Position numbers and translations under genes: made by a program
Notes under the pieces: model-generated
What the model was told of the DNA's origin: nothing
Databases searched by the model: none
What the model saw: only the letters and a program-made list of their open reading frames with translations
Shown: positions 1,425 to 18,176 of the stretch, piece after piece
Position numbering within the stretch: the first letter of the stretch is position 1
Layout of the letters: each line of letters starts with the position of its first letter
Source of the DNA: Deltaproteobacteria bacterium
GTDB lineage: Bacteria > Myxococcota > Myxococcia > Myxococcales > 40CM-4-68-19
Assembly: GCA_025358085.1 (NCBI GenBank)
Contig: JANYKT010000175.1
Coordinates: 1 to 54,910, forward strand
Direction: 5' to 3'
DNA length: 54,910 nucleotides

Positions 1425-2834
<1,410 letters not shown>

Positions 2835-3188: not shown

Positions 3189-3872
3189 ATGGACCTCAAG
3201 ATTCTGGAAGCCGCGAGACTGCTCGACGTCGACAGCGACGAGGTGGCGCGCTGGATCCGCGACAAGGGACTGCGCGCGCACCGGTTCCAGGAGCAGTTCC
3301 GCATCAACAGCGTCGAATTGCAGGAGTGGGCGCTCGAGCACGGCATCCGGGTGCCGCCCGAGCTGATGGCAGTGAACCGGACGGCGAGCGGGCCGCGATC
3401 GGATCTCGCTGCCGCGCTCGCCCTCGGTGGGATGCACCTGGGCGTGCCGGGAACGACGCGCGACGAGGTGCTCGCCTCCGTCTCGCGGCTGCCAGGGATC
3501 CCGGCACCGATCGACCGCGACGCCCTGCTGCAGATGCTGCTCGCGCGCGAGATGCTCGCCTCGACGGGAGTCGGCCGGGGCATCGCCATTCCTCACCCGC
3601 GCAGCCCCCTGGTGCTCGACGTCGACGTGCCGCCGACGCTCCTGCTCTGCTTCCCGCGGCAGCCGGTCGACTTCAACTCCATCGACGGCCGGCCGGTGTG
3701 GGCCCTTTTCCTGCTCCTCAGCCCGACCGTGCAGGACCACCTGCGCATGCTCTCCCAGCTCTCCTACGCGCTGCACGACGCGCCCTTGCAGGCGATGCTC
3801 GAGCGGCGCGCGGACCTCCCCGCCATCCTCGCGCGGCTGCGCGAGCTCTCGACCACCAGCGGAACGCGCTGA
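3189..3872 (+). CDS. Helix-turn-helix / PTS EIIA (PtsN-like) fusion protein
   Basis: This protein is about 227 residues. The N-terminus (ILEAARLLDVDSDEVARWI, residues 5-23, continuing to about 55) is a MerR/excisionase-type helix-turn-helix. Residues about 85-225 form a PTS EIIA type-2 domain. The phosphorylatable histidine lies in GIAIPHPR (H136). Such domains regulate by phosphorylation and protein contacts. No transport components (EIIB or EIIC) are nearby, so a regulatory role for the following membrane complex is likely. ATG 3189 is preferred because AAGGA (3178-3182) is correctly spaced and because the sigma-54 promoter lies upstream at 3130-3145. An in-frame extension back to 3129 would start inside that promoter. 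One base separates its TGA from the next ATG. Confidence 0.88.
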   Translation: MDLKILEAARLLDVDSDEVARWIRDKGLRAHRFQEQFRINSVELQEWALEHGIRVPPELMAVNRTASGPRSDLAAALALGGMHLGVPGTTRDEVLASVSRLPGIPAPIDRDALLQMLLAREMLASTGVGRGIAIPHPRSPLVLDVDVPPTLLLCFPRQPVDFNSIDGRPVWALFLLLSPTVQDHLRMLSQLSYALHDAPLQAMLERRADLPAILARLRELSTTSGTR

Positions 3873-3873
3873 G

Positions 3874-5850
3874 ATGAACGTTCTCCTTGCCGCGCTGGCC
3901 GGTCTTGCGTGCGCGACGGCTTTGCCCTTGCTCCTCTCGCGCTGGGATCGGCTGGCGACGTTCGTGGGCGTGGTCTTTGGCACGGTCTCCTGTGCGGTCG
4001 GGCTGGCCGGTTCCCTGAAGGCCCTGCTCAGCTCCTCGCGCGCTTCCTGGAAAGGCCCATGGGGCCTTCCCATCGGCGAGCTGCGCCTCGGCATCGATCC
4101 GCTGTCCGCGCTGTTCCTCTGCTGCCTTTTTGGCGCCGGAATGGCTGCCTGCGTTTATGGAGGCACCTATCTGCGGGGCTGGCCTGGAAAGAAGCGGGTG
4201 GCCCTGGGCGCCGCTGGGCTGAATGTGTTGGTCGCCTGCGTGGCCATCGTCTTCCTCGCCCGCGACGGGATCGTCTTCCTTCTCGCCTGGGAAGGGATGG
4301 CGCTCACCTCGTTTCTGCTCATCGGATTCGAGCACGAACGCGCCGAAGTGCGCGACGGCGCGCTCTGGTACCTCGTCTTCAATCACTTCGGCGTCGCCTG
4401 CCTGTTCGGGCTCTTCGCCCTCCTCGGACGTGAGCTGGGCAGCTACGCCCTGCCGGGAACTTCGATCGTCGTCGGCGGAACCACCGGGGCCGCGTTGCTC
4501 GGACTCGGTCTTCTGGGATTCGGGACCAAGGCCGGCCTCGCCCCGCTCCACGTCTGGTTGCCGGCCGCCCATCCGGTCGCGCCCAGCCACGTCTCCGCGA
4601 TGCTGTCCGGAGTGTTGCTGAAGACAGGGGTCTACGGCCTCTTCCGCCTGCTGCTGATGGGAAGTCCGCCGGCAGCCTTCGCCTGGGTGCTGATCGCCCT
4701 CGGCGGGCTCTCCGCCGTCCTCGGCGCCATCAACCTGGTCGCGACCACCGACCTCAAGCGCTCGCTGGCCTACTCCAGCATCGAGAACGTCGGCATCATC
4801 GTCCTGGCGATGGGGTTGGGCGCGCTCGGCCTCGCCCAGGGCTCGCCGCTCCTGGCGGCGCTGGGCTTTGCCGGCGCCTTGCTTCATGTCATCAGCCACA
4901 CGGTCTTCAAGTCCCTGCTCTTCACCGCCGCCGGTTCGGTGGTCCACGCGACCCACACCCGCCGCCTCGACTCCATGGGCGGACTCGCCCGCCGCATGCC
5001 GGCGACCGCCTCGGTGTTCCTGATCGGCGCCGGCGCCGCCGCCGCCCTTCCGGGCCTCGCCGGTTTCGCCAGCGAGTTCTTTGTCTATCGCTCGCTGCTC
5101 GAGGCGCTGCAGCGCCTCCAGCCGGCGGGGCAGGTCATGGCGGCAGCCGGGCTGGCTGCGCTGGCTTTCACGGGAGGACTGGTCGCTGCGGGGATGGCGC
5201 GCGCCTTTGGCGTCGCGTTCAGCGGGACGCCGCGGACGGAGGCCGCCGCCGAGGCCCGCGAGCAGCCCGCCGGCATGGTGGTGCCGATGGCGGTGCTCGC
5301 CGCTTTCTGCATCGTGCTCGGCCTCGTGCCCAAGGCGGCGCTCGCCCTGGTGTCTCCGGTCATTGCCCAGGCCGGGCTCGACCCGAAGCTGTTGTCGCCG
5401 GCGATCTCGCAGGCGACGCTGGCGGGCGAGCTCGGGTTCGTCCTGCTCGCGCTCTGCGCGGGCCTCGCGGCGCTTCGCGGCCGGCTTCTCGGCAGGGCCC
5501 TGATCGCGACCGGGTCGACCTGGGGATGCGGTTACGTCGCGCCCACGCCGAGGATGCAACACACCGCCGCGTCGTTCGCCGATCCCGTCGTCCGCGTCGT
5601 CGGGAGCCTGCTGGACACGCGGCAGCTCGGCGCGGTCCCGCGTCTCGCCTTTCCTCCGCGGCTCGACTATGGATTCACCGCCACCGATCGGGTGGAGACG
5701 TCCGGATTCCGCGGGGCCCTGGCCTTCTGCGCGAGGCAACTCGCCGTCCTCCGCGCGCTGCACCGGTCGAGCCTTCAGCAATATCTGGTCTACATCTTCG
5801 TGGCCCTGCTCGTGCTCTTGTCCTATGCGGCGCGGCTGGTGCGGCCGTGA
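3874..5850 (+). CDS. hyfB: HyfB/NuoL-type antiporter-like subunit of Ehr complex
   Basis: This is a 658-residue polytopic protein of the Mrp/NuoL/HyfB proton-conducting family. The ion-channel residues are present: Glu in LAWEGM (E140), Lys in GTKAG (K219), Lys in LLKTG (K250) and Lys in DLKRS (K295). The signature HVWLPAAHPVAPSHVSAML at 226-244 is intact. A HyfB-like C-terminal extension (TGSTWGCGYVAPTPRMQHTA) is followed by a final membrane helix. It probably translocates H+ or Na+ as part of the membrane arm of the complex encoded by this operon. The chosen ATG lies 2 bases after the EIIA stop. Its TGA overlaps the GTG of a second, paralogous antiporter gene. Confidence 0.93.
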   Translation: MNVLLAALAGLACATALPLLLSRWDRLATFVGVVFGTVSCAVGLAGSLKALLSSSRASWKGPWGLPIGELRLGIDPLSALFLCCLFGAGMAACVYGGTYLRGWPGKKRVALGAAGLNVLVACVAIVFLARDGIVFLLAWEGMALTSFLLIGFEHERAEVRDGALWYLVFNHFGVACLFGLFALLGRELGSYALPGTSIVVGGTTGAALLGLGLLGFGTKAGLAPLHVWLPAAHPVAPSHVSAMLSGVLLKTGVYGLFRLLLMGSPPAAFAWVLIALGGLSAVLGAINLVATTDLKRSLAYSSIENVGIIVLAMGLGALGLAQGSPLLAALGFAGALLHVISHTVFKSLLFTAAGSVVHATHTRRLDSMGGLARRMPATASVFLIGAGAAAALPGLAGFASEFFVYRSLLEALQRLQPAGQVMAAAGLAALAFTGGLVAAGMARAFGVAFSGTPRTEAAAEAREQPAGMVVPMAVLAAFCIVLGLVPKAALALVSPVIAQAGLDPKLLSPAISQATLAGELGFVLLALCAGLAALRGRLLGRALIATGSTWGCGYVAPTPRMQHTAASFADPVVRVVGSLLDTRQLGAVPRLAFPPRLDYGFTATDRVETSGFRGALAFCARQLAVLRALHRSSLQQYLVYIFVALLVLLSYAARLVRP

Positions 5851-7630
5851 CGCAACTCCTCGCGGCAATGGCGGTCCTGGGGATCTCGGCGATCGCGGCG
5901 GCGATGCTGGTCCACCGTCGCGCGGCGGCCCTGGGCGCGTCTACAGCGGGCTGTCTGGTCGCGGCGGCGATCGGACTTCCTGCCGCCATCGGCGTGCTGG
6001 CCCGAGAGTCCACCGCGACCCTGGCCTGGACGACGCCCCTGGGTTCGGAAGCGGCGCTCACGCTCGATCCGCTCGCGGCCTGGTTCCTCCTGCCCATCCT
6101 CTTCGTCTCCGCGGTCTGCTCCGTCTACGGGCGCCGGTATTTCCTCGCCGGCCAACGTCCGCTCGGCTTTCTTGCCGCCGGCTTCAACCTGCTCGTTCTC
6201 GCCATCTTGGCCGTGGTGCTCGCTGCCGACGCCATCACCTTCCTGATGGCCTGGGAGATCATGAGGGTGGCCGCGTTCCTGGTGGTGACATACGAACACG
6301 ACCGCGCCGAGGTTCGATCCGCGGGCCTGCTCTACCTCGTGCTGACGCACGCCGGGACCACCTGCCTGCTCGCCTTCTTCGCCCTGCTCTGGAGGGGCGC
6401 GGGCTCGGCGCGGTTTGCCGCCATGGCGCTGCATTCGGCGTTGCCCGGCGGGTCGACCGTGGCGCTCTTTGCGCTGGCAGCGATCGGCTTCGGCTGCAAG
6501 GCGGGCGCCTGGCCGTTGCATTTCTGGTTGCCGGCGGCCCATCCCGTCGCGCCGTCGCACGTCTCGGCCTTGATGTCCCGGGATCGATCATCCTCATGGG
6601 CGCGGGCGTCGGTCTCGTGGCGCTCTCGACGGGGCATCCGGCGGTGGCCGCCCTCGGGTTTGCCGGAGCGCTCTTGCACGTCACCAACCACGCCCTCTTC
6701 AAGTCGCTCCTCTTCCTCGCCGCCGGCGCCGTCGGCAAGGCGAGCGGCACGCTGCAGATCGATCGGCTGGGCGGTCTCGCGCGCCGGATGCCGCGGACGG
6801 CGCTCTGCTTCACCGTCGGTGCGGCGGCCATCAGCGGACTGCCCCCCTTGAACGGGTTCGTCAGCGAGTTCCTCGTCTACCTGGCGCTGCTGGGCGCCAT
6901 CGTCAGCCTGCCCGTCGTTCCACAGTCGGCGGCCGTGCTCGCCTTTGCCGTGCTGGCCTGCGTGGGCGGTCTCGCCTCGGCCTGCTTCGCGAAGGCGACG
7001 GGGGCGATATTCCTCGGGGCCCGCCGCAGCCCCGAGGAGGCGGTGCCGCAGGAGGTCCCGGCTGAGATGCAGCTCTCGATGGGGGTCCTCGCGGCGGCGT
7101 GCCTGGGGATCGGGCTGGCCGGCTCGACGCTGATCGCCGGGCTCGATCCTGTGGTCCGCCAGTTCTCCGCCGTGTCGCTGCGGGAGACCGCGGCCCTGGG
7201 CGGCCTGACGCTGGTGGGGGCGCTCAGCGCGGCCTTGGTGGGCGCCGCCTTCGCCGCCTGGCTGTCGGTGCGGTGGCTGCTGCGGAGACGAACGGTGAAG
7301 ACCGGGCCCACCTGGGTCTGCGGATATCCGGCCGTCCAGCCGTCGATGCAGACCACGGCCAGCTCGTTCGCGCAGCCGCTCATCCTCGTCTTCAAGAACA
7401 TCCTGCTGCCGGTGCGCCACCAGTCCGGATCGAGCGCGGCTTTTCCTGCCGCCCTCGCCGTCGAGGAGCACTGCCCCGATCCGATCGAACGCTTCCTGCT
7501 CGGACCAGGCGTCACCGGCGGGGCCGTCGCCTTTTCCGTTGCCCGGCAGGCGCAGCCGAAGCGTGTGCAGTCGTACGTGCTGGCCATCTTCATCACGCTG
7601 GTCGGGCTGCTCTGGTGGAGGCTCGGATGA
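5847..7630 (+). pseudogene. hyfB: Second HyfB-type antiporter, internal deletion plus frameshift
   Basis: This tandem paralogue of the preceding gene starts at GTG 5847 (GTGA overlap). Frame 1 gives about 244 normal residues, including Glu in MAWEIM (E137), Lys in GCKAG (K218) and APSHVSALMS, up to about 6578. The protein then continues only in another frame, from SIILMGAGVGL to the TGA at 7628-7630. Aligned to its paralogue, about 61 residues are missing at the junction. These include the membrane helices with the conserved LLKTG and DLKRSLAYSS lysines. The restored length would be about 657 residues, matching the paralogue. The C-terminal half is otherwise well preserved (TGPTWVCGYPAVQPSMQTTA). 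Either the gene is newly broken or the assembly lost about 180-190 bases. The downstream gene overlaps it by ATGA, so the operon is otherwise intact. Confidence 0.85.
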
Positions 7631-8541
7631 GGGCCGCCCTTCACCTGCTCCTCTTCCTTGTCTTCCCGCCCCTGCTGATGGGGGTCATCAATCGCGTCAA
7701 GGCCGCCTTTGCCGGCCGGCGCGGCCCGCCCGTGCTGCAGCTCTACTTCGATCTCTGGAAGCTTTTGCGCAAGGGCGCCGTCTACAGCACCACCACCACC
7801 TGGATCTTCCGGGCCGGCCCGGTCGTCAGTCTCGCGGCCACGCTCGTCGCCGGGCTGCTCATGCCACTCGGCGGCGGGCTCCCCGCGCCCTTTGCGTTCC
7901 CCGGCGACGTGATCCTCTTCGCCTACCTTCTCGCCACCGCCCGCTTCGCGACGGTGCTCGCCGCGCTCGACACCGGATCTTCCTTCGAGGGGATGGGAGC
8001 GAGCCGCGAGGTGACCTTCTCGGCCCTGGCCGAGCCCGCGCTCTTCCTCTCCATCGCCGCGCTCGCGCTCGCCCGGCAGAGCATCTCGTGGACGTCCATC
8101 CTCTCCGGCCAGATGGCGGCGTGGCATCTCTTCGGTCCGGCGATGGCGATGCTGATCGGCGCGCTGGTGCTGGTCGCCCTGGCCGAGAACAGCCGGATCC
8201 CCTTCGACGACCCGACCACCCATCTCGAGCTCACCATGGTGCACGAGGTGATGATCCTCGATCACTCGGGCCCGGACCTGGCGATGATTCTCTACGGCGC
8301 CTCCCTCAAGCTGTTCCTGCTCGGCGCCATCGTGGTGCGGCTGGCCTTTCCCTTCGAAGCCAGCGTCCCCGGCCACGTGGCGCTCTTCGTCGCTGGCCTG
8401 CTGGTCTACGCGGTGGTGATGGGCGTCATCGAGTCGACCTTCGCGCGGCTGCGCATGGACCGCATTCCGCAGATCCTCATCGCCGCCAGCGTCTTCGCCG
8501 CGCTGGCCGTCGCCGTCATCCTCGTCCGGGTGAATGCATGA
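7627..8541 (+). CDS. hyfC: HyfC/NuoH-like membrane subunit
   Basis: This 304-residue, eight-helix membrane protein belongs to the NuoH/HyfC/HycD family. It anchors the hydrophilic arm of complex I and group 4 hydrogenases to the membrane. The family signature ENSRIPFDDPTTHLELTMVH is intact and carries the conserved acidic residues of the quinone- or proton-channel loop. The N-terminal FPPLLMGVINRVKAAFAGRRGPP loop is also typical. The ATG overlaps the stop of the broken antiporter gene (ATGA, 7627-7630), and its own TGA overlaps the next ATG (8538). Confidence 0.93.
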   Translation: MRAALHLLLFLVFPPLLMGVINRVKAAFAGRRGPPVLQLYFDLWKLLRKGAVYSTTTTWIFRAGPVVSLAATLVAGLLMPLGGGLPAPFAFPGDVILFAYLLATARFATVLAALDTGSSFEGMGASREVTFSALAEPALFLSIAALALARQSISWTSILSGQMAAWHLFGPAMAMLIGALVLVALAENSRIPFDDPTTHLELTMVHEVMILDHSGPDLAMILYGASLKLFLLGAIVVRLAFPFEASVPGHVALFVAGLLVYAVVMGVIESTFARLRMDRIPQILIAASVFAALAVAVILVRVNA

Positions 8542-9188
8542 ACGTCTCGCTCGATCTGGCCCTGGTCCTGGTCCTGGTTCTCTGCGTGGCCTCGGTGGGC
8601 ACCAGCCGGATCGGAGCCGCCATCCGCTATTTTTCTTTCCAGGCTGCCGCGGTGGCGATGGTCCCGCTCCTGATCGAGACCAGGTCGGGAGAGATCTCGG
8701 TGCACGCCTGGGTCCTCTTCGCCATGACCATCGTCCTCAAGGTCGTCGGCGTTCCCTACCTGCTCAACCGGTCGGTGCGGGAAGCCGCGGTGCGAACCGA
8801 AGTCGAGCCGCTGATCGGATTCGGCCTGTCGCTCGCGATCGGCGGCGCGCTGGTGGCGCTCTCGTTCGCCCTCGCCCGGCAGCTGCCGCTGTTGCAGAAG
8901 CCGCCCTCCGATCTGCTCATCCCGGTCGCCTTCAGCCTGCTGATGATCGGCCTGCTCCTGATCGTAAGCCGGTCCAAGGCGGTGACCCAGGTGGTCGGGT
9001 ATCTCATCATGGAGAACGGGATCTTCCTCTTCGGGCTGCTGCTGCTCGAGACCTTTCCCTGGCTGATCGAGATGGGCGTGCTCCTCGACCTCTTCGTCGC
9101 CGTGTTCGTCATGGGCATCGTCATCTTCCAGATCAACCGCGAGTTCGACCACATCGACTCGCACCAGCTCGATTCGCTGAAGGACTGA
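8538..9188 (+). CDS. hyfE: HyfE-like membrane subunit
   Basis: This 216-residue protein is almost entirely hydrophobic and corresponds to HyfE, whose C-terminal half is NuoK-like. Features include the long N-terminal hydrophobic block, the SRSKAVTQVVGYLIMENGIFLFG motif at about 150-172 and an acidic C-terminal tail (FDHIDSHQLDSLKD). Subunits of this type carry part of the proton pathway in the membrane domain. The start ATG lies in an ATGA overlap with hyfC. hyfF follows after 4 bases. Confidence 0.9.
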   Translation: MNVSLDLALVLVLVLCVASVGTSRIGAAIRYFSFQAAAVAMVPLLIETRSGEISVHAWVLFAMTIVLKVVGVPYLLNRSVREAAVRTEVEPLIGFGLSLAIGGALVALSFALARQLPLLQKPPSDLLIPVAFSLLMIGLLLIVSRSKAVTQVVGYLIMENGIFLFGLLLLETFPWLIEMGVLLDLFVAVFVMGIVIFQINREFDHIDSHQLDSLKD

Positions 9189-9192
9189 CCCC

Positions 9193-10620
9193 ATGCTGGC
9201 GACGCTGCTCCTGCTTCCGATCATTGCCGCGGCCGTCTCGCTGCCGCTCGGCTCCGATCGGGCGCGCGTCCTCCTCTTTCGCCTCGTCGCCCTGGCGCAC
9301 CTGGCCCTCGTCGGCGGGATCTGGTGGAGACCACCTTTGCCGCTCTTCGGCGGCTACCTCGCGCTCGATGCTCCCGGACTCCTCGTGCTCAGCCTGGGCA
9401 GCGTTCTCTTCGCTGGCGTCGCCGTGTACCTGGGCGGCTATCTCGACCGCGCCGAGCAGCGCCCACTGCGGATCTTCGTCGCCAGCCTGCTCTTGCTCGA
9501 GGGGGCCATCAGCCTGGTGACGGCTTGCCAGCACCTCGGACTCTTCTGGGTCGCCATCGAGATCTCCACCCTCTCCAGCGCGCCGCTCCTCTACTTCCAC
9601 CACAGTGGCCGCGCGCTCGAGGCCACCTGGAAATATCTGATCGTCAGCTCGGTCGGCATCGCCCTCGCCTTGCTCGGGACGGTGTTTCTCGCCGTCGCCG
9701 CCACCGACGGCTCCGGGGAGACGACGCTGTGGATCCGGGACTTGATGGCCGGGCGCGCCCTCTCCAAGCCCTGGTTGCATGCCTCGTTCGTCCTGCTGCT
9801 GATCGGATACGGCACCAAGATGGGGCTCGCGCCCATGCACGCCTGGAAGCCTGACGTCTACGGCGAGGCCCCCCCGCCGGTCGCGGCGCTGCTGGCGGGC
9901 GCGCTGACCAGCTGCGCGTTTCTCGCCGTGATGCGCATCACCGGCATCTGCGCCCGCGCCGGTGAAGCTCCCTTCGCCAGCTCGCTCCTGGTCTTGCTCG
10001 GGCTCGTCTCGATGGGGGTCGCGGCCGTCCTCATCGTCGGCCAGACCGACTATCGGCGGCTGCTCGCTTACTCCAGCGTCGAGCAGATGGGCATCCTGGT
10101 TTTCGGGCTCGGATTCGGCATCGCGGGAGGGCAGGGCGCCTTCCTCCACGTCCTCAACAATGCGCTCAACAAGGGGATCATGTTCCTCACCGCCGGGAAC
10201 GTCCTGCAGCTCTGCGGCACCAGCGCGATGGCGAGCACCACCGGCCTCTTGCGCCGGGCGCCCGTGACTGGCGTGCTGCTGCTGGTGGGCCTCTTCGCCG
10301 GCGTCGGGCTGCCACCCTTCGGCCTCTTCATCTCGGAGTTCACCATCCTGCGCGCGGCGCTCGCTGGCGGCGCCTCGGCCTGGCCGGCGGTGCTGTACCT
10401 CTTCTTCCTCGCCGTCATCTTCCTCGGGATGTGCGCCGCCGTTCTCCCCCTGGCGCAAGGGGAGGCGCGGGCCGGGGAGCTGCCTTTGCGCGAGCCATTG
10501 TCGACGACGATTCCGCCGGCGATCTTCGCGATGGCTGCGCTGGTGCTCGGGGTTTACGTGCCTCCGCCGCTGGCGCGGATGATCGACGCCGCGGCCCGGC
10601 AGCTGGGAGTCGCCGGATGA
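9193..10620 (+). CDS. hyfF: HyfF-type antiporter-like subunit
   Basis: This 475-residue NuoN/HyfF-type antiporter-like protein has about 13-14 membrane segments. The helix-5 glutamate is in WVAIEIS (E123) and a channel lysine is in GTKMGLAPMHAW (K209). The later conserved block reads DYRRLLAYSSVEQMG, with Arg instead of the DLK lysine found in HyfB. It should be the third ion-translocating unit of the complex. It starts 4 bases after hyfE, and its TGA overlaps the ATG of the large-subunit gene (10617). Confidence 0.92.
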   Translation: MLATLLLLPIIAAAVSLPLGSDRARVLLFRLVALAHLALVGGIWWRPPLPLFGGYLALDAPGLLVLSLGSVLFAGVAVYLGGYLDRAEQRPLRIFVASLLLLEGAISLVTACQHLGLFWVAIEISTLSSAPLLYFHHSGRALEATWKYLIVSSVGIALALLGTVFLAVAATDGSGETTLWIRDLMAGRALSKPWLHASFVLLLIGYGTKMGLAPMHAWKPDVYGEAPPPVAALLAGALTSCAFLAVMRITGICARAGEAPFASSLLVLLGLVSMGVAAVLIVGQTDYRRLLAYSSVEQMGILVFGLGFGIAGGQGAFLHVLNNALNKGIMFLTAGNVLQLCGTSAMASTTGLLRRAPVTGVLLLVGLFAGVGLPPFGLFISEFTILRAALAGGASAWPAVLYLFFLAVIFLGMCAAVLPLAQGEARAGELPLREPLSTTIPPAIFAMAALVLGVYVPPPLARMIDAAARQLGVAG

Positions 10621-12125
10621 GCGCGGGCATCCCCAAGGCAGCCGCGGAGTGCGCGTTCCCCAACGGCGGCGCGGTGTCCCTCGAGTCGGTTCCGGCGCTG
10701 CCTCTCTCCGCGCTGACCGCGGCGGCGACCGAGGCCCGCGATCGCCAGAAGGGGCTCATCGCGCTGCTCCCGCTCGTCGAGGGCGCCGCGAGCCGCCTGC
10801 TGCTCCTCCTCTCCGATCCGTCGAACGGGCACCTTTCCGCCTCGTCCTTCAGGCTGGAGGGAGCGAAGGAGTGGCCTTCGATCACCCCGTTCTGGTCCGC
10901 CGCGCACCTGTTCGAGCGCGAGATCTTCGAGCGCACGGGGTGGAAGCCGATCGGCCACCCCTGGCTGAAAGCGGTCCGCCGCCATCGCGAGCTGGAAGCG
11001 GATGGCGACGCGCCGGCGCATCCATTCCTGCGCGCCGAAGGAGAAGGAGTTCACGAGGTCGCGGTTGGCCCCATCCACGCCGGCATCATCGAGCCGGGCC
11101 ACTTCCGCCTGCAATGCTTCGGCGAGGAAGTCCTGCACCTCGAGATCCAGCTCGGGTACCAGCACCGCGCCGCCGAGCATCTCCTCGAGACGGGGACTCC
11201 GGCGCGGCGGCTCGCGGTGGCGGAGTCGATCGCCGGCGACTCTGCCGTCGGGCACGTCCTGGCCTACTGCACGGCGCTCGAAGGACTCGCCGGAACCAAG
11301 GTTCCCCTTCGCGCGCAAGCGATTCGCGGGGTGGCCCTCGAGCTGGAACGAATCGCAAACCACGTGGGCGACCTCGGAGCGCTGTGCAACGACGTGGGCT
11401 TCCTCCCCGGCGCCGCCTACTTCGGGCGGATGCGCGGCAATTTCCTCAACCTGCTCCTGGAGATTTCCGGGAGCCGATTCGGCAGGAGCCTGATCGTCCC
11501 CGGCGGCGTGCGCTTCGACATCCCTCCCGACCTGCAGGCGCGCCTGCTCGGGACCCTCGACAGGGACGAGCCGCAGCTGGAGGACATGGCCAAGCTGGTC
11601 TTCTCGACCCCTTCGGTCCTGTCCCGCTTCGAAGGAACGGGAACCATCAAGAGCGCGGCAGCGGTCGAATTCGGATTCGTCGGCCCCACCGCGCGGGCCT
11701 GCGGCGTGCCGCGCGACGTTCGCAGCGACCATCCCAGCGGCGTGTTCCAGTTCAGCCACATTCCGGTCGCGGTCGCGGAAGGCGGCGACGTGATGGCCCG
11801 CGCGACGGTCCGGTGGCTGGAGGTGCTCCGGTCGCTGCGGTTTGTTCGCGAGCAGCTGGAGAGCCTGCCGGCCGGCGCCTTGCGAAGGGAGCCGGGAGCC
11901 CCGCGCCGCTCAGCGCTGACCGTGGCATTGGTCGAGGGATGGCGGGGCGCCATCGCCCACGTGGTGATCACCGACGAGCAGGGCGCGGTGGCTCGTCATA
12001 AAGTCATCGACCCTTCCTTCCACAACTGGTTCGCGGTCACCCTTGCCGTCCGCCGGGCGCAGGTCTCGGACTTCCCGCTCTGCAACAAGAGCTTCAACCT
12101 TTCCTACGCCGGACACGATCTCTGA
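10617..12125 (+). CDS. hyfG: HyfG-like (NuoC-NuoD fused) large subunit lacking [NiFe] ligands
   Basis: This 502-residue protein has a NuoC-like N-terminal domain (about 40-145) fused to a NuoD/hydrogenase large-subunit domain. In [NiFe] hydrogenases the L1 motif (CxxC) and L2 motif (DPCxxC) hold nickel. Here the L1 region reads ESIAGDSAVGH (203-213), with no Cys at either ligand position. The C-terminal L2 region reads SDFPLCNKSFNLSYAGHDL, leaving at most one Cys (C489). There is also no C-terminal extension for protease maturation. A nickel site cannot form, so this is an Ehr-type or complex-I-like subunit rather than a hydrogenase. It may bind a quinone-like or other substrate. ATGA overlap with hyfF fixes the start. 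Confidence 0.92.
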   Translation: MSAGIPKAAAECAFPNGGAVSLESVPALPLSALTAAATEARDRQKGLIALLPLVEGAASRLLLLLSDPSNGHLSASSFRLEGAKEWPSITPFWSAAHLFEREIFERTGWKPIGHPWLKAVRRHRELEADGDAPAHPFLRAEGEGVHEVAVGPIHAGIIEPGHFRLQCFGEEVLHLEIQLGYQHRAAEHLLETGTPARRLAVAESIAGDSAVGHVLAYCTALEGLAGTKVPLRAQAIRGVALELERIANHVGDLGALCNDVGFLPGAAYFGRMRGNFLNLLLEISGSRFGRSLIVPGGVRFDIPPDLQARLLGTLDRDEPQLEDMAKLVFSTPSVLSRFEGTGTIKSAAAVEFGFVGPTARACGVPRDVRSDHPSGVFQFSHIPVAVAEGGDVMARATVRWLEVLRSLRFVREQLESLPAGALRREPGAPRRSALTVALVEGWRGAIAHVVITDEQGAVARHKVIDPSFHNWFAVTLAVRRAQVSDFPLCNKSFNLSYAGHDL

Positions 12126-12138
12126 ACGAGGTGACCTG

Positions 12139-12906
12139 GTGCTGCAGCTCTTCAAGACGAGATTCGAGCAAGGCAAAGCGACCGTCGCTTTCCCCTTTGT
12201 CGAAAAGCTGGCGGAGCGGTTTCGCGGACTCCCGCGGCTCTTGCCGAACCTGTGCAAGGACGGATGCCGGGCCTGCGCCGACGCCTGTCCGACCGAGGCG
12301 ATCCGACTCGCCCCCCTGCGGCTCGATCTCGGCGCCTGCCTGTTCTGCGGCCTCTGCGAGGAGGCCTGCCCCGAAGGAGCGATCAGGTTCGGCGAAGAAT
12401 ACGAGACGTCCTTCCGGACGCGCGAAGCGATGGTGCTGGACGGCGCCGAAGCGCGCCTCGCCACCGCGCTCGACGCCCGCATGCGCTCGCTCTTCGGACG
12501 CTCGCTGAAGCTCCGCTCGGTCGCGGCCGGCGACTGCAGCGGCTGCGCCGCGGAGCTGACCGCCCTCGGCAACGTCGTCTTCGACCTGGGCCGGTTCGGG
12601 ATCCAGTTCGTCGCCTCACCCCGGCACGCGGACGGCCTCGTCATCTCGGGTCCCGTCACCGCGAACATGCGCGCGGCCCTGAAGCTTGCTTACGACGCCA
12701 TGCCGGCGCCGAAGATCGTGATCGCGGTCGGCGCCTGCGCGATCAGCGGCGGCCCGTTCCGCGGATCTCCGGCAGCGAGCGACGGAGTTCCGCCGGATTT
12801 CCCCGTCGACCTGTACGTCGCCGGGTGCCCGCCGCACCCGCTCGCTCTCCTCGACGGCCTGCTCCGGCTGCTCGGTCGGATCGAGGGGGCCACCAACGGC
12901 GCCTAG
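12139..12906 (+). CDS. Ferredoxin-NuoB fusion (HyfH+HyfI) small subunit
   Basis: This 255-residue fusion starts at GTG 12139, preceded by GAGGTG. Residues 35-80 form a two-cluster ferredoxin domain with Cys at 39, 43, 46, 50 and 67, 70, 73, 77. Residues 115-250 form a NuoB/HyfI domain with the four ligands of the proximal [4Fe-4S] cluster: C133 and C136 in GDCSGC, C200 in GACA and C230 in AGCPP. It should carry electrons from a soluble donor to the HyfG-like subunit. In E. coli hyf these are two separate genes (hyfH, hyfI). No other hydrophilic electron-input module is encoded here. The operon ends with this gene. Confidence 0.9.
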   Translation: MLQLFKTRFEQGKATVAFPFVEKLAERFRGLPRLLPNLCKDGCRACADACPTEAIRLAPLRLDLGACLFCGLCEEACPEGAIRFGEEYETSFRTREAMVLDGAEARLATALDARMRSLFGRSLKLRSVAAGDCSGCAAELTALGNVVFDLGRFGIQFVASPRHADGLVISGPVTANMRAALKLAYDAMPAPKIVIAVGACAISGGPFRGSPAASDGVPPDFPVDLYVAGCPPHPLALLDGLLRLLGRIEGATNGA

Positions 12907-13008: not shown

Positions 13009-16000
13009 ATGGAAATCTACCGGCTCAAGAAAGTGCTCTGCGCGAACCGCGGCGAGATCGCGATTCGCATCTTCCGCGCCTGCAACGAACTCGGCATCCG
13101 CACGGTTGCGATCTACAGCGAGGAAGACCGGCTGCACGAGCACCGGCACAAGGCCGACGAAGCGTACCTGGTCGGCAAGGGCAAGCGGCCGGTCGATGCG
13201 TATCTGGGGATCGACGAAATCCTCGACGTGGCCGAGCGCGCGGGCGTGGACGCGATCCACCCGGGGTATGGGTTTCTCTCGGAGAACCCGGCCTTCGCCA
13301 GCGCTTGCGAGGCGCGCGGCATCCGCTTCATCGGACCCACCGCGCGCGTGGTCGCGCTCATGGGTGACAAGGTGCAGGCGAAGGCGCTTGCCCTGGAAGC
13401 CGGTGTTCCCGTGGTGCCGGGCATCGAGCTGTCTGGCGAAGGCGCTCTCGAGCGCGCGCGCGCCTTCTTCGACGGGAACGCTCCCATCCTGGTCAAGGCA
13501 GCCCACGGCGGCGGGGGCCGCGGCATGCGCGTGGTTCGCCAGGCCAAACACCTGGAGGAAGCGCTGGCGCAGGCGCGCTCGGAATCCAAGAGTGCCTTCG
13601 GCAGCGAGGTGGTCTTCCTGGAGAAGTTTCTCGAAAAAGTCCGCCACATCGAAGTGCAGATTCTGGGCGATACCCACGGCGAGATCGTTCACCTGCACGA
13701 GCGCGATTGCTCCGTCCAGAGGCGCCACCAGAAGGTCATCGAGATCGCGCCCGCGCCGCGCCTGTCGCGGTCCATGCGCGATCGCATCTGTGCCGATGCG
13801 CTGCGGCTGGCGCGCGCGGCGCACTACACCAGCGCCGGCACCGTCGAGTTCCTGATCGACGGCGAACGCCATTACTTCATCGAGGTGAATGCGCGCCTGC
13901 AGGTCGAGCACACCGTCACCGAGCAGATCACCGGGATCGACCTGGTGCAGGCGCAGCTGCGCATCGCCGAGGGTTGCGCCCTGAGCTCGGAGGACATCCG
14001 CATCTCTTCGCAGCAGGCGATCGCGCCGCGTGGCTTTGCCGTGCAATGCCGCGTGACCACCGAAGACCCGCTCAACAACTTCCTGCCCGACACCGGGACC
14101 ATCCATACCTGGCGCGCCGGTTTCGGCTTCGGAATCCGCCTCGACGCCGGCAATGGATATACCGGCGCCTATATCTCTCCCCATTACGATTCGCTGCTGG
14201 TGAAGGTCATCGCCTTCGCCGAGACGTTCCACGGCGCGGTGCAGAAGGCGCAGCGCGCGCTGCGAGAGTTCCGCATCCGCGGCGTGAAGACCAACATTCC
14301 CTTCCTCGAGAAGGTGCTGGATCACCCGGTCTTCCTCTCGGGCGAGGCGACCACGCGCTTCATCGACGAGACGCCGGAGCTCTTCCAGATCCAGCCCCGC
14401 CGCGATCGCGCGACCAAGCTGCTGCATTACCTGGCCGATGTCATCGTGAATGGGCACCGGACCATCAAGAAGGAGCAGCGCAGGTCCCCGGCTTCTTTCC
14501 TCGAGCCGCGGCTGCCCGCAGTCCCGCTGGGTCCCCCGCCGGCCGGGACCGCGCAGATCCTCGCCGAGCGCGGCCCGCGTGGCCTGGCGCAGTGGGTGCT
14601 GGAGCAGGGGCGGGTGCTCCTGACCGATACGACGATGCGCGACGCGCACCAGAGCCTGCTCGCCACGCGGATGCGCTCGTACGACATCCTCAAGGTCGCG
14701 CCGCTGACCGCGCACCTGGCCCCCCAGCTCTTTTCGCTCGAATGCTGGGGCGGCGCGACGTTCGATACCGCCTATCGCTTCCTGAATGAAGACCCGTGGG
14801 TGCGCCTGCGCAAGCTGAAAGCCGCGGTCCCCAATCTGCTGCTGCAAATGCTTCTGCGGGGTGCCAATGCAGTCGGCTATACGTCCTATCCCGATCATCT
14901 CGTCGAAGCATTCATCGACCAGGCCGCGGCGGCCGGAGTGGATGTCTTTCGAGTCTTCGATTCATTGAACGATATCGAAAGCATGGAGGTCTCGGTCCGC
15001 CGCATCCAGACCACCGGCAAGGTGGCCGAGGTCGCCATTTGCTATACCGGCGACGTCGCCAACCCGCACCGCCCCAAGTATGGCCTCGGGTATTACACGG
15101 ACCTCGCGCGCCGCATCGAGGACATGGGCGCCCATTTTCTCTGCATCAAGGACATGGCCGGTCTCCTGCGCCCGCGCGCCGCGGGAATGCTGATGGACGC
15201 GCTGCTCGAGACGGTGAAGATCCCGATCCACCTGCACATGCACGATACCAGCGGCAATGGCGTGGCGGCGCTGCTGGTGGCGATCGATCACGGCGTGCAC
15301 GTGGTGGACGGCGCGTTCGCCTCGATGGCGGGCCTCACCAGCCAGCCCTCGCTGAATGCCCTGATCGCCGCGCTGCGCGAGCACCGGCGCGAGACCGGCC
15401 TGACCAACAAGTCGCTGCAGGCGCTGGTCGATTACTGGGACGACGTGCGCGAGCCCTATGCGCCGTTCGAGTGCGGTCTCAAGAGCAGCACCACCGAGGT
15501 TTACTTCCACGAGATCCCCGGCGGGCAGTATTCGAATCTGCGGCCGCAGGTGGCCGAGATGGGGCTGTTGTCCCGCTGGAATGACGTCAAGGTCGCGTTC
15601 GCCGTGGTCAATATGCTGTGCGGCGATATCCCCAAGGTCACGCCGAGCAGCAAGATGGTCGGCGACTTCGCCATCTTCCTCTTGAAGAATGACCTGCTCC
15701 AGACGGGGCACACCTTCGAGTCCACCGTGTCGCAGACCCGCGCCGCGGTGCTGCGCGAGGCGCACCGGCTCGACTTCCCTTCGAGCGTGACCGGATACTT
15801 CCAGGGACACCTCGGCAATCCGCCCGGGGGATATCCCGAAGATCTGCGGGCCGCGGTTCTCAAGGGGTTGCCGGTCCTGCAAGGGCGGGCGGGCGCCGCA
15901 ATGGAGCCCATCGATCTGGACCAGCTGGCGGCCGAGCTTTCGCTCAAGCATGGCCGCGCCATCGCGCCGCACGAGGCGATCAGCGCCGCGCTCTATCCCC

Positions 16001-16494
16001 GCGTCCTCGATGATTACTGGACGCAGCTGGCGAAAACCGAGGATGTGTCGATCCTGGATACCCCGAGCTATTTCTATGGGCTCGACATCGGCCAGGAGGT
16101 CTGGGTCGAACTCGAGGCAGGCAAGACGCTGGTGGTCTCGCTCTCTGCCATCGGCGACGTCAACGAAGAAGGCATGCGCACCGTCTATTTCGAGGTGAAC
16201 GGCCATGGCCGGCAGGTGCCCGTGCGCGATCGGTCGCGCGCGTCGGCAGCGGCGGAGCAGCGGCAGGCGGAGCGCGGAAACGATCACCATGTCGGGGCCT
16301 CGATGCCCGGCCTGGTGATCAGCGTTCACGTCAAGGCCGGCGACCAGGTCGAGGCCGGCGCGCCGCTCCTCACTATCGAAGCGATGAAGATGGAGACGGT
16401 CGTGCGTGCGCCGCGGGCCGCCTCGGTGACCGAGCTGCTCGCGGTGCCGAAGAGCGCGGTCAAGGCGGGCGAGCTGCTGGTGGTGCTCGGGTGA
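13009..16494 (+). CDS. pyc: Pyruvate carboxylase
   Basis: This is a full-length single-chain enzyme of about 1161 residues that carboxylates pyruvate to oxaloacetate (anaplerosis). The biotin carboxylase domain spans about 5-460: it begins KKVLCANRGEIAIRI and has the ATP-grasp loop AAHGGGGRGMRV at about 165. The carboxyltransferase domain begins at LLTDTTMRDAHQSL (about 540), and HLHMHDTSGNG marks its metal-binding site. A PYC/OADA domain and a biotinyl domain follow, with the biotinylated Lys in EAMKMET (about K1127). ATG 13009 is chosen because it places the biotin carboxylase fold directly at the N-terminus. The frame is open further upstream without homology. It has no visible link to the Ehr-like operon. 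Confidence 0.96.
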   Translation: MEIYRLKKVLCANRGEIAIRIFRACNELGIRTVAIYSEEDRLHEHRHKADEAYLVGKGKRPVDAYLGIDEILDVAERAGVDAIHPGYGFLSENPAFASACEARGIRFIGPTARVVALMGDKVQAKALALEAGVPVVPGIELSGEGALERARAFFDGNAPILVKAAHGGGGRGMRVVRQAKHLEEALAQARSESKSAFGSEVVFLEKFLEKVRHIEVQILGDTHGEIVHLHERDCSVQRRHQKVIEIAPAPRLSRSMRDRICADALRLARAAHYTSAGTVEFLIDGERHYFIEVNARLQVEHTVTEQITGIDLVQAQLRIAEGCALSSEDIRISSQQAIAPRGFAVQCRVTTEDPLNNFLPDTGTIHTWRAGFGFGIRLDAGNGYTGAYISPHYDSLLVKVIAFAETFHGAVQKAQRALREFRIRGVKTNIPFLEKVLDHPVFLSGEATTRFIDETPELFQIQPRRDRATKLLHYLADVIVNGHRTIKKEQRRSPASFLEPRLPAVPLGPPPAGTAQILAERGPRGLAQWVLEQGRVLLTDTTMRDAHQSLLATRMRSYDILKVAPLTAHLAPQLFSLECWGGATFDTAYRFLNEDPWVRLRKLKAAVPNLLLQMLLRGANAVGYTSYPDHLVEAFIDQAAAAGVDVFRVFDSLNDIESMEVSVRRIQTTGKVAEVAICYTGDVANPHRPKYGLGYYTDLARRIEDMGAHFLCIKDMAGLLRPRAAGMLMDALLETVKIPIHLHMHDTSGNGVAALLVAIDHGVHVVDGAFASMAGLTSQPSLNALIAALREHRRETGLTNKSLQALVDYWDDVREPYAPFECGLKSSTTEVYFHEIPGGQYSNLRPQVAEMGLLSRWNDVKVAFAVVNMLCGDIPKVTPSSKMVGDFAIFLLKNDLLQTGHTFESTVSQTRAAVLREAHRLDFPSSVTGYFQGHLGNPPGGYPEDLRAAVLKGLPVLQGRAGAAMEPIDLDQLAAELSLKHGRAIAPHEAISAALYPRVLDDYWTQLAKTEDVSILDTPSYFYGLDIGQEVWVELEAGKTLVVSLSAIGDVNEEGMRTVYFEVNGHGRQVPVRDRSRASAAAEQRQAERGNDHHVGASMPGLVISVHVKAGDQVEAGAPLLTIEAMKMETVVRAPRAASVTELLAVPKSAVKAGELLVVLG

Positions 16495-17246: not shown

Positions 17247-18176
17247 CTAGGGCGCAGCGGTCTGCGCGTCGGTGGGACCCGTCGCTCCGCGCCCGCCCAG
17301 ATTCGCGAAGGCTGCCGAGACCAGCACCATCGCGCCGCCGAAGAGCAAGGTCGGTCCGATGCGCTCGTGCAGGACCAGCGTGCCGAGGATCACGGCAACC
17401 GTCGTGTCGAGGAGCGGGATGCTTCCGATGGCTGCCATGGGGACGCGCGGGAGCAGCCAGAAGAGCAACAAGTAGCAGACGGAAGTGCAGAGCACCGCGA
17501 GGTAGCCCAGGATCAGGAAGGTGCGTGGGGTCCAGTGCGCGACGCTGTTTTGCTCGAGCAGGGCGGTGAGCACCAGGAGACAAACGGCACCCGACCAGAT
17601 CTGGCCCCAGGCCATGACCACGGGCGTGATGGTCCCGAGCGTCCGGCGCACCAGGACGTTTGCGAGCGCGACCAGCATGGCCGAGCCGACGATGAACAGT
17701 CCGCCCCGGGCCGCGTGGTCATACGCGTGGCCGTCGAGGCGCCCGCCGCCGAACGCGGTGAGCAGAGCGGGGAGTTCGAGGACGAGCACACCGGATAGAC
17801 CGAGCGCGGCGGCGAAGAGCTTGCCCAAGGTCAGCGAATGGCCCGGGAGAAGGACATGGGCAACGAGCACGATCCAGACGGGAAAGGTCGCGAAGAGGAC
17901 CGCCGCGACGGCAGAGGGAACCCATTGTTGCGCGACGAACATCAGGCCGTAGGGCAGGCCGATTTGCAGCACGCCCAGGCCGGCAAGCTCGAGCAGCTGC
18001 TTGCGGTCGAGCTGTCTGGCGCCGCGGATCGCAAACGGTGCAAGCACGGCACCCGCCAGCGCCATGCGCGTTCCGGCGAAGAGGAGCGGTGGCAGGTCTC
18101 GCAAACCCAGCTTGATGAAAAGCCAGGTCGAGCCCCAGAGCATGAAGCAAGCCACGTAAGCGAGCGCGACCTTCAC
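17247..18176 (-). CDS. EamA/DMT-family exporter
   Basis: This 309-residue protein has ten hydrophobic segments arranged as two EamA repeats. The first repeat begins VACFMLWGSTWLFIKLGL, and the second includes VMAWGQIWSGAVCLLVL and the closing LGTLVLHERIGPTLLFGGAMVL. Drug/metabolite transporters of this type export amino acids or other small metabolites. The substrate cannot be told from sequence. GTG 18176 is chosen because it sits just before the first membrane helix and 12 bases after the stop of the upstream kinase gene. The open frame extends further upstream only within that kinase gene. Confidence 0.88.
   Translation of the reverse strand: MKVALAYVACFMLWGSTWLFIKLGLRDLPPLLFAGTRMALAGAVLAPFAIRGARQLDRKQLLELAGLGVLQIGLPYGLMFVAQQWVPSAVAAVLFATFPVWIVLVAHVLLPGHSLTLGKLFAAALGLSGVLVLELPALLTAFGGGRLDGHAYDHAARGGLFIVGSAMLVALANVLVRRTLGTITPVVMAWGQIWSGAVCLLVLTALLEQNSVAHWTPRTFLILGYLAVLCTSVCYLLLFWLLPRVPMAAIGSIPLLDTTVAVILGTLVLHERIGPTLLFGGAMVLVSAAFANLGGRGATGPTDAQTAAP

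Follow-up and report, generated by a model that had tools for sequence, protein, structure and literature searches.

A nickel-site-free Ehr-type complex encoded in a myxococcal genome as a candidate ferredoxin-linked ion pump

Energy-converting-hydrogenase-related (Ehr) complexes, first described as such in 2005 and present in at least 16 named groups, have to our knowledge no established reaction. We analysed such a complex encoded in the window, i.e. the whole 54,910-nucleotide contig JANYKT010000175.1 of a Deltaproteobacteria bacterium (GCA_025358085.1; 5.42 Mb, 217 contigs, 98% complete), where positions 3189–12906 hold one regulator gene and a seven-gene Ehr operon with four-base overlaps between several of its genes (Table 1). 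Pfam and NF profile matches bear out the original prediction, made from the sequence of the window, that hydrogenase-4-type membrane subunits are encoded here. All genes of these subunits were found, as predicted, but the second HyfB-like gene, EhrA-2, is broken in this assembly. Furthermore, the first gene, which had been counted as part of the complex, encodes an HTH_17–PTS_EIIA_2 protein and no complex subunit. We named the subunits gene by gene after their homologues among the Geobacter subunits given in PMC7894505.

The central feature of the complex is the absence of a nickel site from its large subunit, EhrL. Direct alignment to E. coli HyfG and HycE places ESIAGDS opposite DRVCGIC at L1, confirming the predicted loss of the CxxC motif, and NLSYAGHDL opposite DPCYSCTDR at L2 (window segment CNKSFNLSYAGHDL). 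The four ligand columns read A206, S209, S496 and G499, without a Cys at any of them. The original prediction had allowed at most one Cys at L2; such a residue exists (C489), but it precedes the first L2 ligand column by seven residues, so that the alignment rules it out as a nickel ligand and the number of ligand Cys is zero. Among 103 EhrL sequences, representing 100 related loci and the window, 102 carry no ligand Cys, one carries a single ligand Cys and none carries the four that bind nickel, while S496 and G499 are invariant and the Ehr-specific C167 and C489 each occur in 99. In addition, the L2 equivalent is directly followed by the end of EhrL, at L502, and the C-terminal extension that hydrogenase proteases remove is lacking. 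With neither four Cys ligands nor this extension, and with no HycI near 101 Ehr loci, the complex falls outside the group 4 [NiFe] hydrogenases. It shares with E. coli Hyf/Hyc the membrane subunits, the NuoC–NuoD fused large subunit and the proton-delivery Glu, but differs in lacking nickel ligands, a maturation protease and HycB/FdhF, and in the fusion that joins its small subunit and ferredoxin part. It does combine, in one operon, a group 4-hydrogenase-like large subunit without the nickel-binding CxxC with antiporter-like and NuoH-like subunits, as is characteristic of Ehr, the second antiporter gene being disrupted. A second, deep-branching Ehr-like operon at locus L092 (EhrL at 17727) has the L2 segment VNKSFNLSYSGNDR and could be an early Ehr form.

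The residues around the former nickel site are equally distinctive when set against complex I/NDH-1, which shares NuoC/D-, B-, I-, H-, K- and L/M/N-like parts with Ehr. Ehr has no NADH module and carries a hydrogenase-type EPGHFR motif, and the equivalents of the quinone-binding His38 and Tyr87 are missing from EhrL: the column of Nqo4 His38 is Ile158 in all 103 sequences, in which no conserved Tyr corresponding to Nqo4 Tyr87 was found in the 195–203 region. E159, the equivalent of MbhL E21, which is needed for proton reduction (PMC7684303), is present in 103/103 EhrL and in HyfG/HycE, and absent from NuoD and MBS. Of the EAPRG motif, EhrL retains the Arg as R443, but has Trp442 at the Pro position in 100 of the 103. 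D208, N490, K491 and S492 are invariant in EhrL, and only S492 is common to HyfG, HycE and NuoCD. An AlphaFold2 model of EhrL (mean predicted local distance difference test score 91.3) has HycE as its best PDB match (7z0s, template modelling score 0.89) and is less confident at 152–160 and 498–502, the loops that would border the pocket. Altogether, the aligned columns predict a pocket of neither the hydrogenase, the MBS nor the complex I type.

In EhrS, the small subunit, a NuoB-like domain is fused to a ferredoxin part with two [4Fe-4S] motifs, as the Fer4 and PF01058 matches and the Cys pattern confirm. A comparison of genomes revealed that this fusion is conserved: leaving aside relatives truncated at a contig end, nearly all have a protein that aligns with it along its length, including Geobacter argillaceus, Geomonas limicola, Geothrix paludis and Rectinema subterraneum, and the single "small subunit" EhrS listed for G. 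sulfurreducens Ehr, GSU0739-45 (PMC7894505), fits it. Since nearly all relatives have the fused form, a reduction of electron input peculiar to the window operon, as suggested earlier, is not supported; the fusion is the usual Ehr small subunit. Across 99 homologues (median length 261 residues) the twelve cluster Cys are conserved in ~82–98%, and those of the proximal cluster, C133, C136, C200 and C230, which have MBH-type CxxC spacing, occur in 95–97. Pyrococcus MBS, compared here with Ehr by mode of working, is a ferredoxin-driven, ion-pumping relative that has lost the NiFe site; it keeps two of the four ligand Cys, uses a three-Cys proximal cluster as catalytic site and has no E21 Glu (PMC7684303), whereas Ehr has zero ligand Cys, a four-Cys proximal [4Fe-4S] cluster and the Glu. 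Hence EhrS, in contrast to MBS, has no open Fe site, and the complex is not of the MBS type.

In a quickly computed EhrL tree of 105 rows, in which some deep forks are unresolved, the window sequence groups with those of Geobacter, Geomonas and Geothrix, apart from HyfG/HycE and Nuo; it pairs with a relative from its own family (G009, support 100), near other Myxococcota rows. Phyla are intermixed in this tree, which allows, without proving, horizontal transfer. The Geobacter Ehr consists of EhrA-1/A-2/B/C/D/L/S, GSU0739-45 (Coppi 2005 and Marreiros 2013, cited in PMC7894505 and PMC6688271), and shares the seven-subunit set and the lack of nickel ligands with the window operon; the arrangement of the genes and the fusion in the small subunit are also as in the window in Geobacter argillaceus, Geomonas and Geothrix. 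Differences are the EhrL identity of 48–51% and the broken EhrA-2 of the window, G. sulfurreducens being compared by its published description only. The original prediction of an Ehr-type complex is thus supported by ligand columns, tree and operon size, and at the sequence level we assign the window operon to the known Geobacter-type kind. At two loci (L029 and L030, in G045 and G062) two divergent Ehr operons lie ~12 kb apart with a sigma-54 regulator between them, the second copy being only ~43% identical in EhrL.

Ehr has been called non-functional for its inability to oxidise H2, and a dead hydrogenase relic was stated for Geobacter strain KN400 (PMC13194489). The broken EhrA-2 and the patchy occurrence within the window's family (2/12 genomes, as against nearly all genomes of one neighbouring family) would agree with decay. 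However, the whole operon, the cluster Cys and the EhrL-specific residues are conserved across 16 named groups, and since relics do not retain such conservation, we regard this explanation as very unlikely for the Ehr family.

Aligned to NuoL E144, K229 and K399, the Glu of transmembrane helix 5, the Lys of helix 7 and the Glu of helix 12 are retained in the antiporter-like subunits EhrA-1 and EhrD and in the intact EhrA-2 of G009, and alignment to HyfC/HycD/NuoH shows that a charged loop close to the interface is conserved in EhrB; these features are consistent with, but no proof of, ion transport. The EhrA-2 of the window has a lesion at ~6578–6584, where ~62 codons are missing and the frame is shifted relative to the G009 orthologue: its two frames match residues 2–250 and 313–660 with ~5 bases between them, as also seen in the DNA alignment. 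The missing codons include the helix 8 region with its Lys, and no intact second copy of EhrA-2 was found elsewhere in the genome. The lesion may be a genuine deletion, or short reads may have been misassembled between repeats; if real, the complex of this strain would be one pump subunit short.

Which partners exchange electrons with Ehr is narrowed down by its surroundings. Near the 101 Ehr loci surveyed, tblastn gave no match for NuoE, NuoF, NuoG, FdhF, HycB, HycI, HycH, HypB or FocB. A dedicated dehydrogenase partner was rejected on this basis. The predicted absence of maturation, formate dehydrogenase and NADH modules therefore holds for the locus, yet HypD is encoded on another contig of the genome. 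Because no dehydrogenase module lies near these loci, ferredoxin is the most likely donor or acceptor at EhrS. A 2-oxoacid:ferredoxin oxidoreductase (POR) domain in 30/30 Ehr genomes examined supports ferredoxin as donor only weakly, since POR is common in anaerobes.

We also surveyed the metabolic markers HypD, MenB and MqnA/D in 41 Ehr genomes. HypD was not detected in 11 of them, nine had no match to MenB or MqnA/D, and Rectinema subterraneum and Treponema UBA12037 lacked all of these markers. Among the marker-negative genomes there are some incomplete bins, and quinones may be made by other routes, but Rectinema is a named strain. Both HypD and MenB are present in the window genome. Ehr-bearing Riflemargulisbacteria have no full quinone pathway (PMC6349859). 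The missing markers, together with the missing quinone His and Tyr, argue that neither H2 nor menaquinone would be a universal partner of Ehr; this combined argument, directed at the two usual guesses, is new here.

As a ferredoxin:menaquinone oxidoreductase, Ehr would resemble photosynthetic NDH-1 or donor-module-free complex I, as its NuoD-like large subunit and fold and the MenB of the window genome would allow; Ile in the His38 column, the lack of a conserved Tyr in the Tyr87 region, the nine genomes without both menaquinone markers and a proximal cluster of MBH-type CxxC rather than the tandem CC of complex I make this improbable. Formation of H2 from formate with a formate dehydrogenase, suggested for Geobacter, or a respiratory unit of formate dehydrogenase and Ehr, proposed for Saganbacteria (PMC6349859), could account for the higher abundance of Ehr on formate (PMC7894505). 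Yet nickel ligands are lacking, no FdhF, HycB or NuoE/F homologue lies near the 101 loci and Ehr occurs in genomes without HypD, so that we give such roles hardly any credence.

Clustering of all flanking open reading frames revealed a recurrent neighbour at Ehr loci. The protein combining a helix-turn-helix (HTH) domain with an EIIA domain of the phosphotransferase system (PTS) is the dominant neighbour family (59/101 loci) and adjoins Ehr in 51 of the 70 loci with at least 1.5 kb of upstream sequence, in ~11 phyla. Its gene usually stands before EhrA, sometimes between two EhrA genes or in divergent orientation. The phospho-accepting His136 is retained in 61/62 homologues, and PTS enzyme I was found in 27/30 Ehr genomes examined. 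As our literature search found no report linking EIIA to Ehr, the link is apparently previously unreported. The protein may be a transcription factor or a regulatory subunit. In ~five loci from different phyla a SulP-type anion transporter, identified by inspection of its sequence, adjoins EIIA and Ehr (Table 1); with only ~five adjacent cases among 101 loci, a link to bicarbonate is a lead.

Taking these data together, we favour, with moderate confidence, the reading that Ehr is a ferredoxin-linked, ion-translocating oxidoreductase of the hydrogenase-4/complex I superfamily that works with a small acceptor. Electrons from reduced ferredoxin, or from another donor of similarly low potential, would pass through EhrS to an acceptor, generally neither H+ nor menaquinone, bound in a remodelled EhrL pocket lined by D208, N490, K491, S496, R443 and E159, and the energy released would drive the export of H+ or Na+. 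The HTH-EIIA protein probably links the PTS phosphorelay, and with it phosphoenolpyruvate or nitrogen state, to expression or activity. A ferredoxin- or other-donor-driven ion pump, as originally predicted, fits every test made, though it is not proven by them.

The same anatomy would serve a complex running in reverse, in which proton- or sodium-motive force drives ferredoxin reduction for pyruvate synthase and other low-potential reactions while a milder donor is oxidised at EhrL. POR-type ferredoxin enzymes in every Ehr genome examined are in line with this direction, as is the finding that Geobacter cultures grown on formate contained more of the Ehr subunits than those with hydrogen (PMC7894505). 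However, this proteomic trend has other readings, and the fermenters Rectinema and Treponema, in which one would expect an excess of reduced ferredoxin, carry Ehr; we thus consider reverse operation rather unlikely.

Several points also weigh against the ferredoxin-linked pump that we favour. POR is also found in 11/14 control genomes, and EhrA-2 is broken in the window assembly. Moreover, 80 named loci were retrieved by the patterns HAG[IV]IEPG and SDFP[LI]CNK, which inflates conservation at EhrL 152–160 and 484–491; the same residues are carried by 23 order-level EhrL sequences retrieved with the whole protein, without patterns.

More tentatively, Ehr might represent a third kind of function within the complex I/hydrogenase superfamily. 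In this view it would be an ion pump linked to ferredoxin that needs neither nickel nor quinone, and a small molecule would be reduced (or oxidised) in an EhrL pocket of a new type, polar and proton-connected; the EIIA-type PTS protein, whose gene adjoins Ehr in most lineages, would act as its gate. The argument against H2 and menaquinone as universal partners is open to clean testing in Rectinema subterraneum, Geothrix paludis, Geomonas limicola and Geobacter, and the conserved EIIA-type partner suggests metabolic control of Ehr by the PTS. Solving the Ehr reaction would reveal a further energy-conservation route of the complex I ancestor.

Table 1. Features of the window and SulP-type transporter genes at other Ehr loci (coordinates of the latter refer to the locus named).
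Feature	Position	Strand	Basis
Sigma-54-dependent response regulator (receiver + AAA + Fis HTH)	1425–2834	-	Pfam PF00158/PF00072/PF02954
HTH_17 + PTS_EIIA_2 regulator-like protein, phospho-acceptor His136	3189–3872	+	Pfam; best PDB matches PtsN/EIIA-Ntr
EhrA-1, HyfB/NuoL-like antiporter subunit, intact	3874–5850	+	PF00361; NF005086 503 bits
EhrA-2, second HyfB/NuoL-like subunit, disrupted in assembly, GTG start	5847–7630	+	profile gap 249 to 314
EhrB, HyfC/NuoH-like membrane subunit	7627–8541	+	PF00146 125 bits; alignment to HyfC/HycD/NuoH
EhrC, HyfE/NuoK-like membrane subunit	8538–9188	+	NF008556 87.9 bits
EhrD, HyfF/NuoN-like antiporter subunit	9193–10620	+	PF00361; NF005044 285 bits
EhrL, NuoC–NuoD/HycE-like large subunit without Ni ligands	10617–12125	+	PF00346, PF00329, ligand columns
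EhrS, two [4Fe-4S] ferredoxin motifs + NuoB/HycG-like domain, GTG start	12139–12906	+	Fer4, PF01058
Pyruvate carboxylase	13009–16494	+	
Chemotaxis-type cluster	23627–43862		
SulP-type transporter	L035:3–2723		
SulP-type transporter	L056:1–1029		
SulP-type transporter	L075:1473–3293		
SulP-type transporter	L090:3–1760		
SulP-type transporter	L091:2324–4231		

The sigma-54-dependent response regulator is divergent from the Ehr operon, and a homologue adjoins Ehr in many order-level relatives; it is the probable regulator of the operon. Directly 3' of the operon and on the same strand lies a pyruvate carboxylase gene, which we rejected as an Ehr component, as no such neighbour exists at the G009 orthologue or at other Ehr loci. 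Further downstream, the window holds a chemotaxis-type cluster composed of methyl-accepting chemotaxis proteins, CheR, CheA-like and CheW-like proteins and a HEAT-repeat protein.

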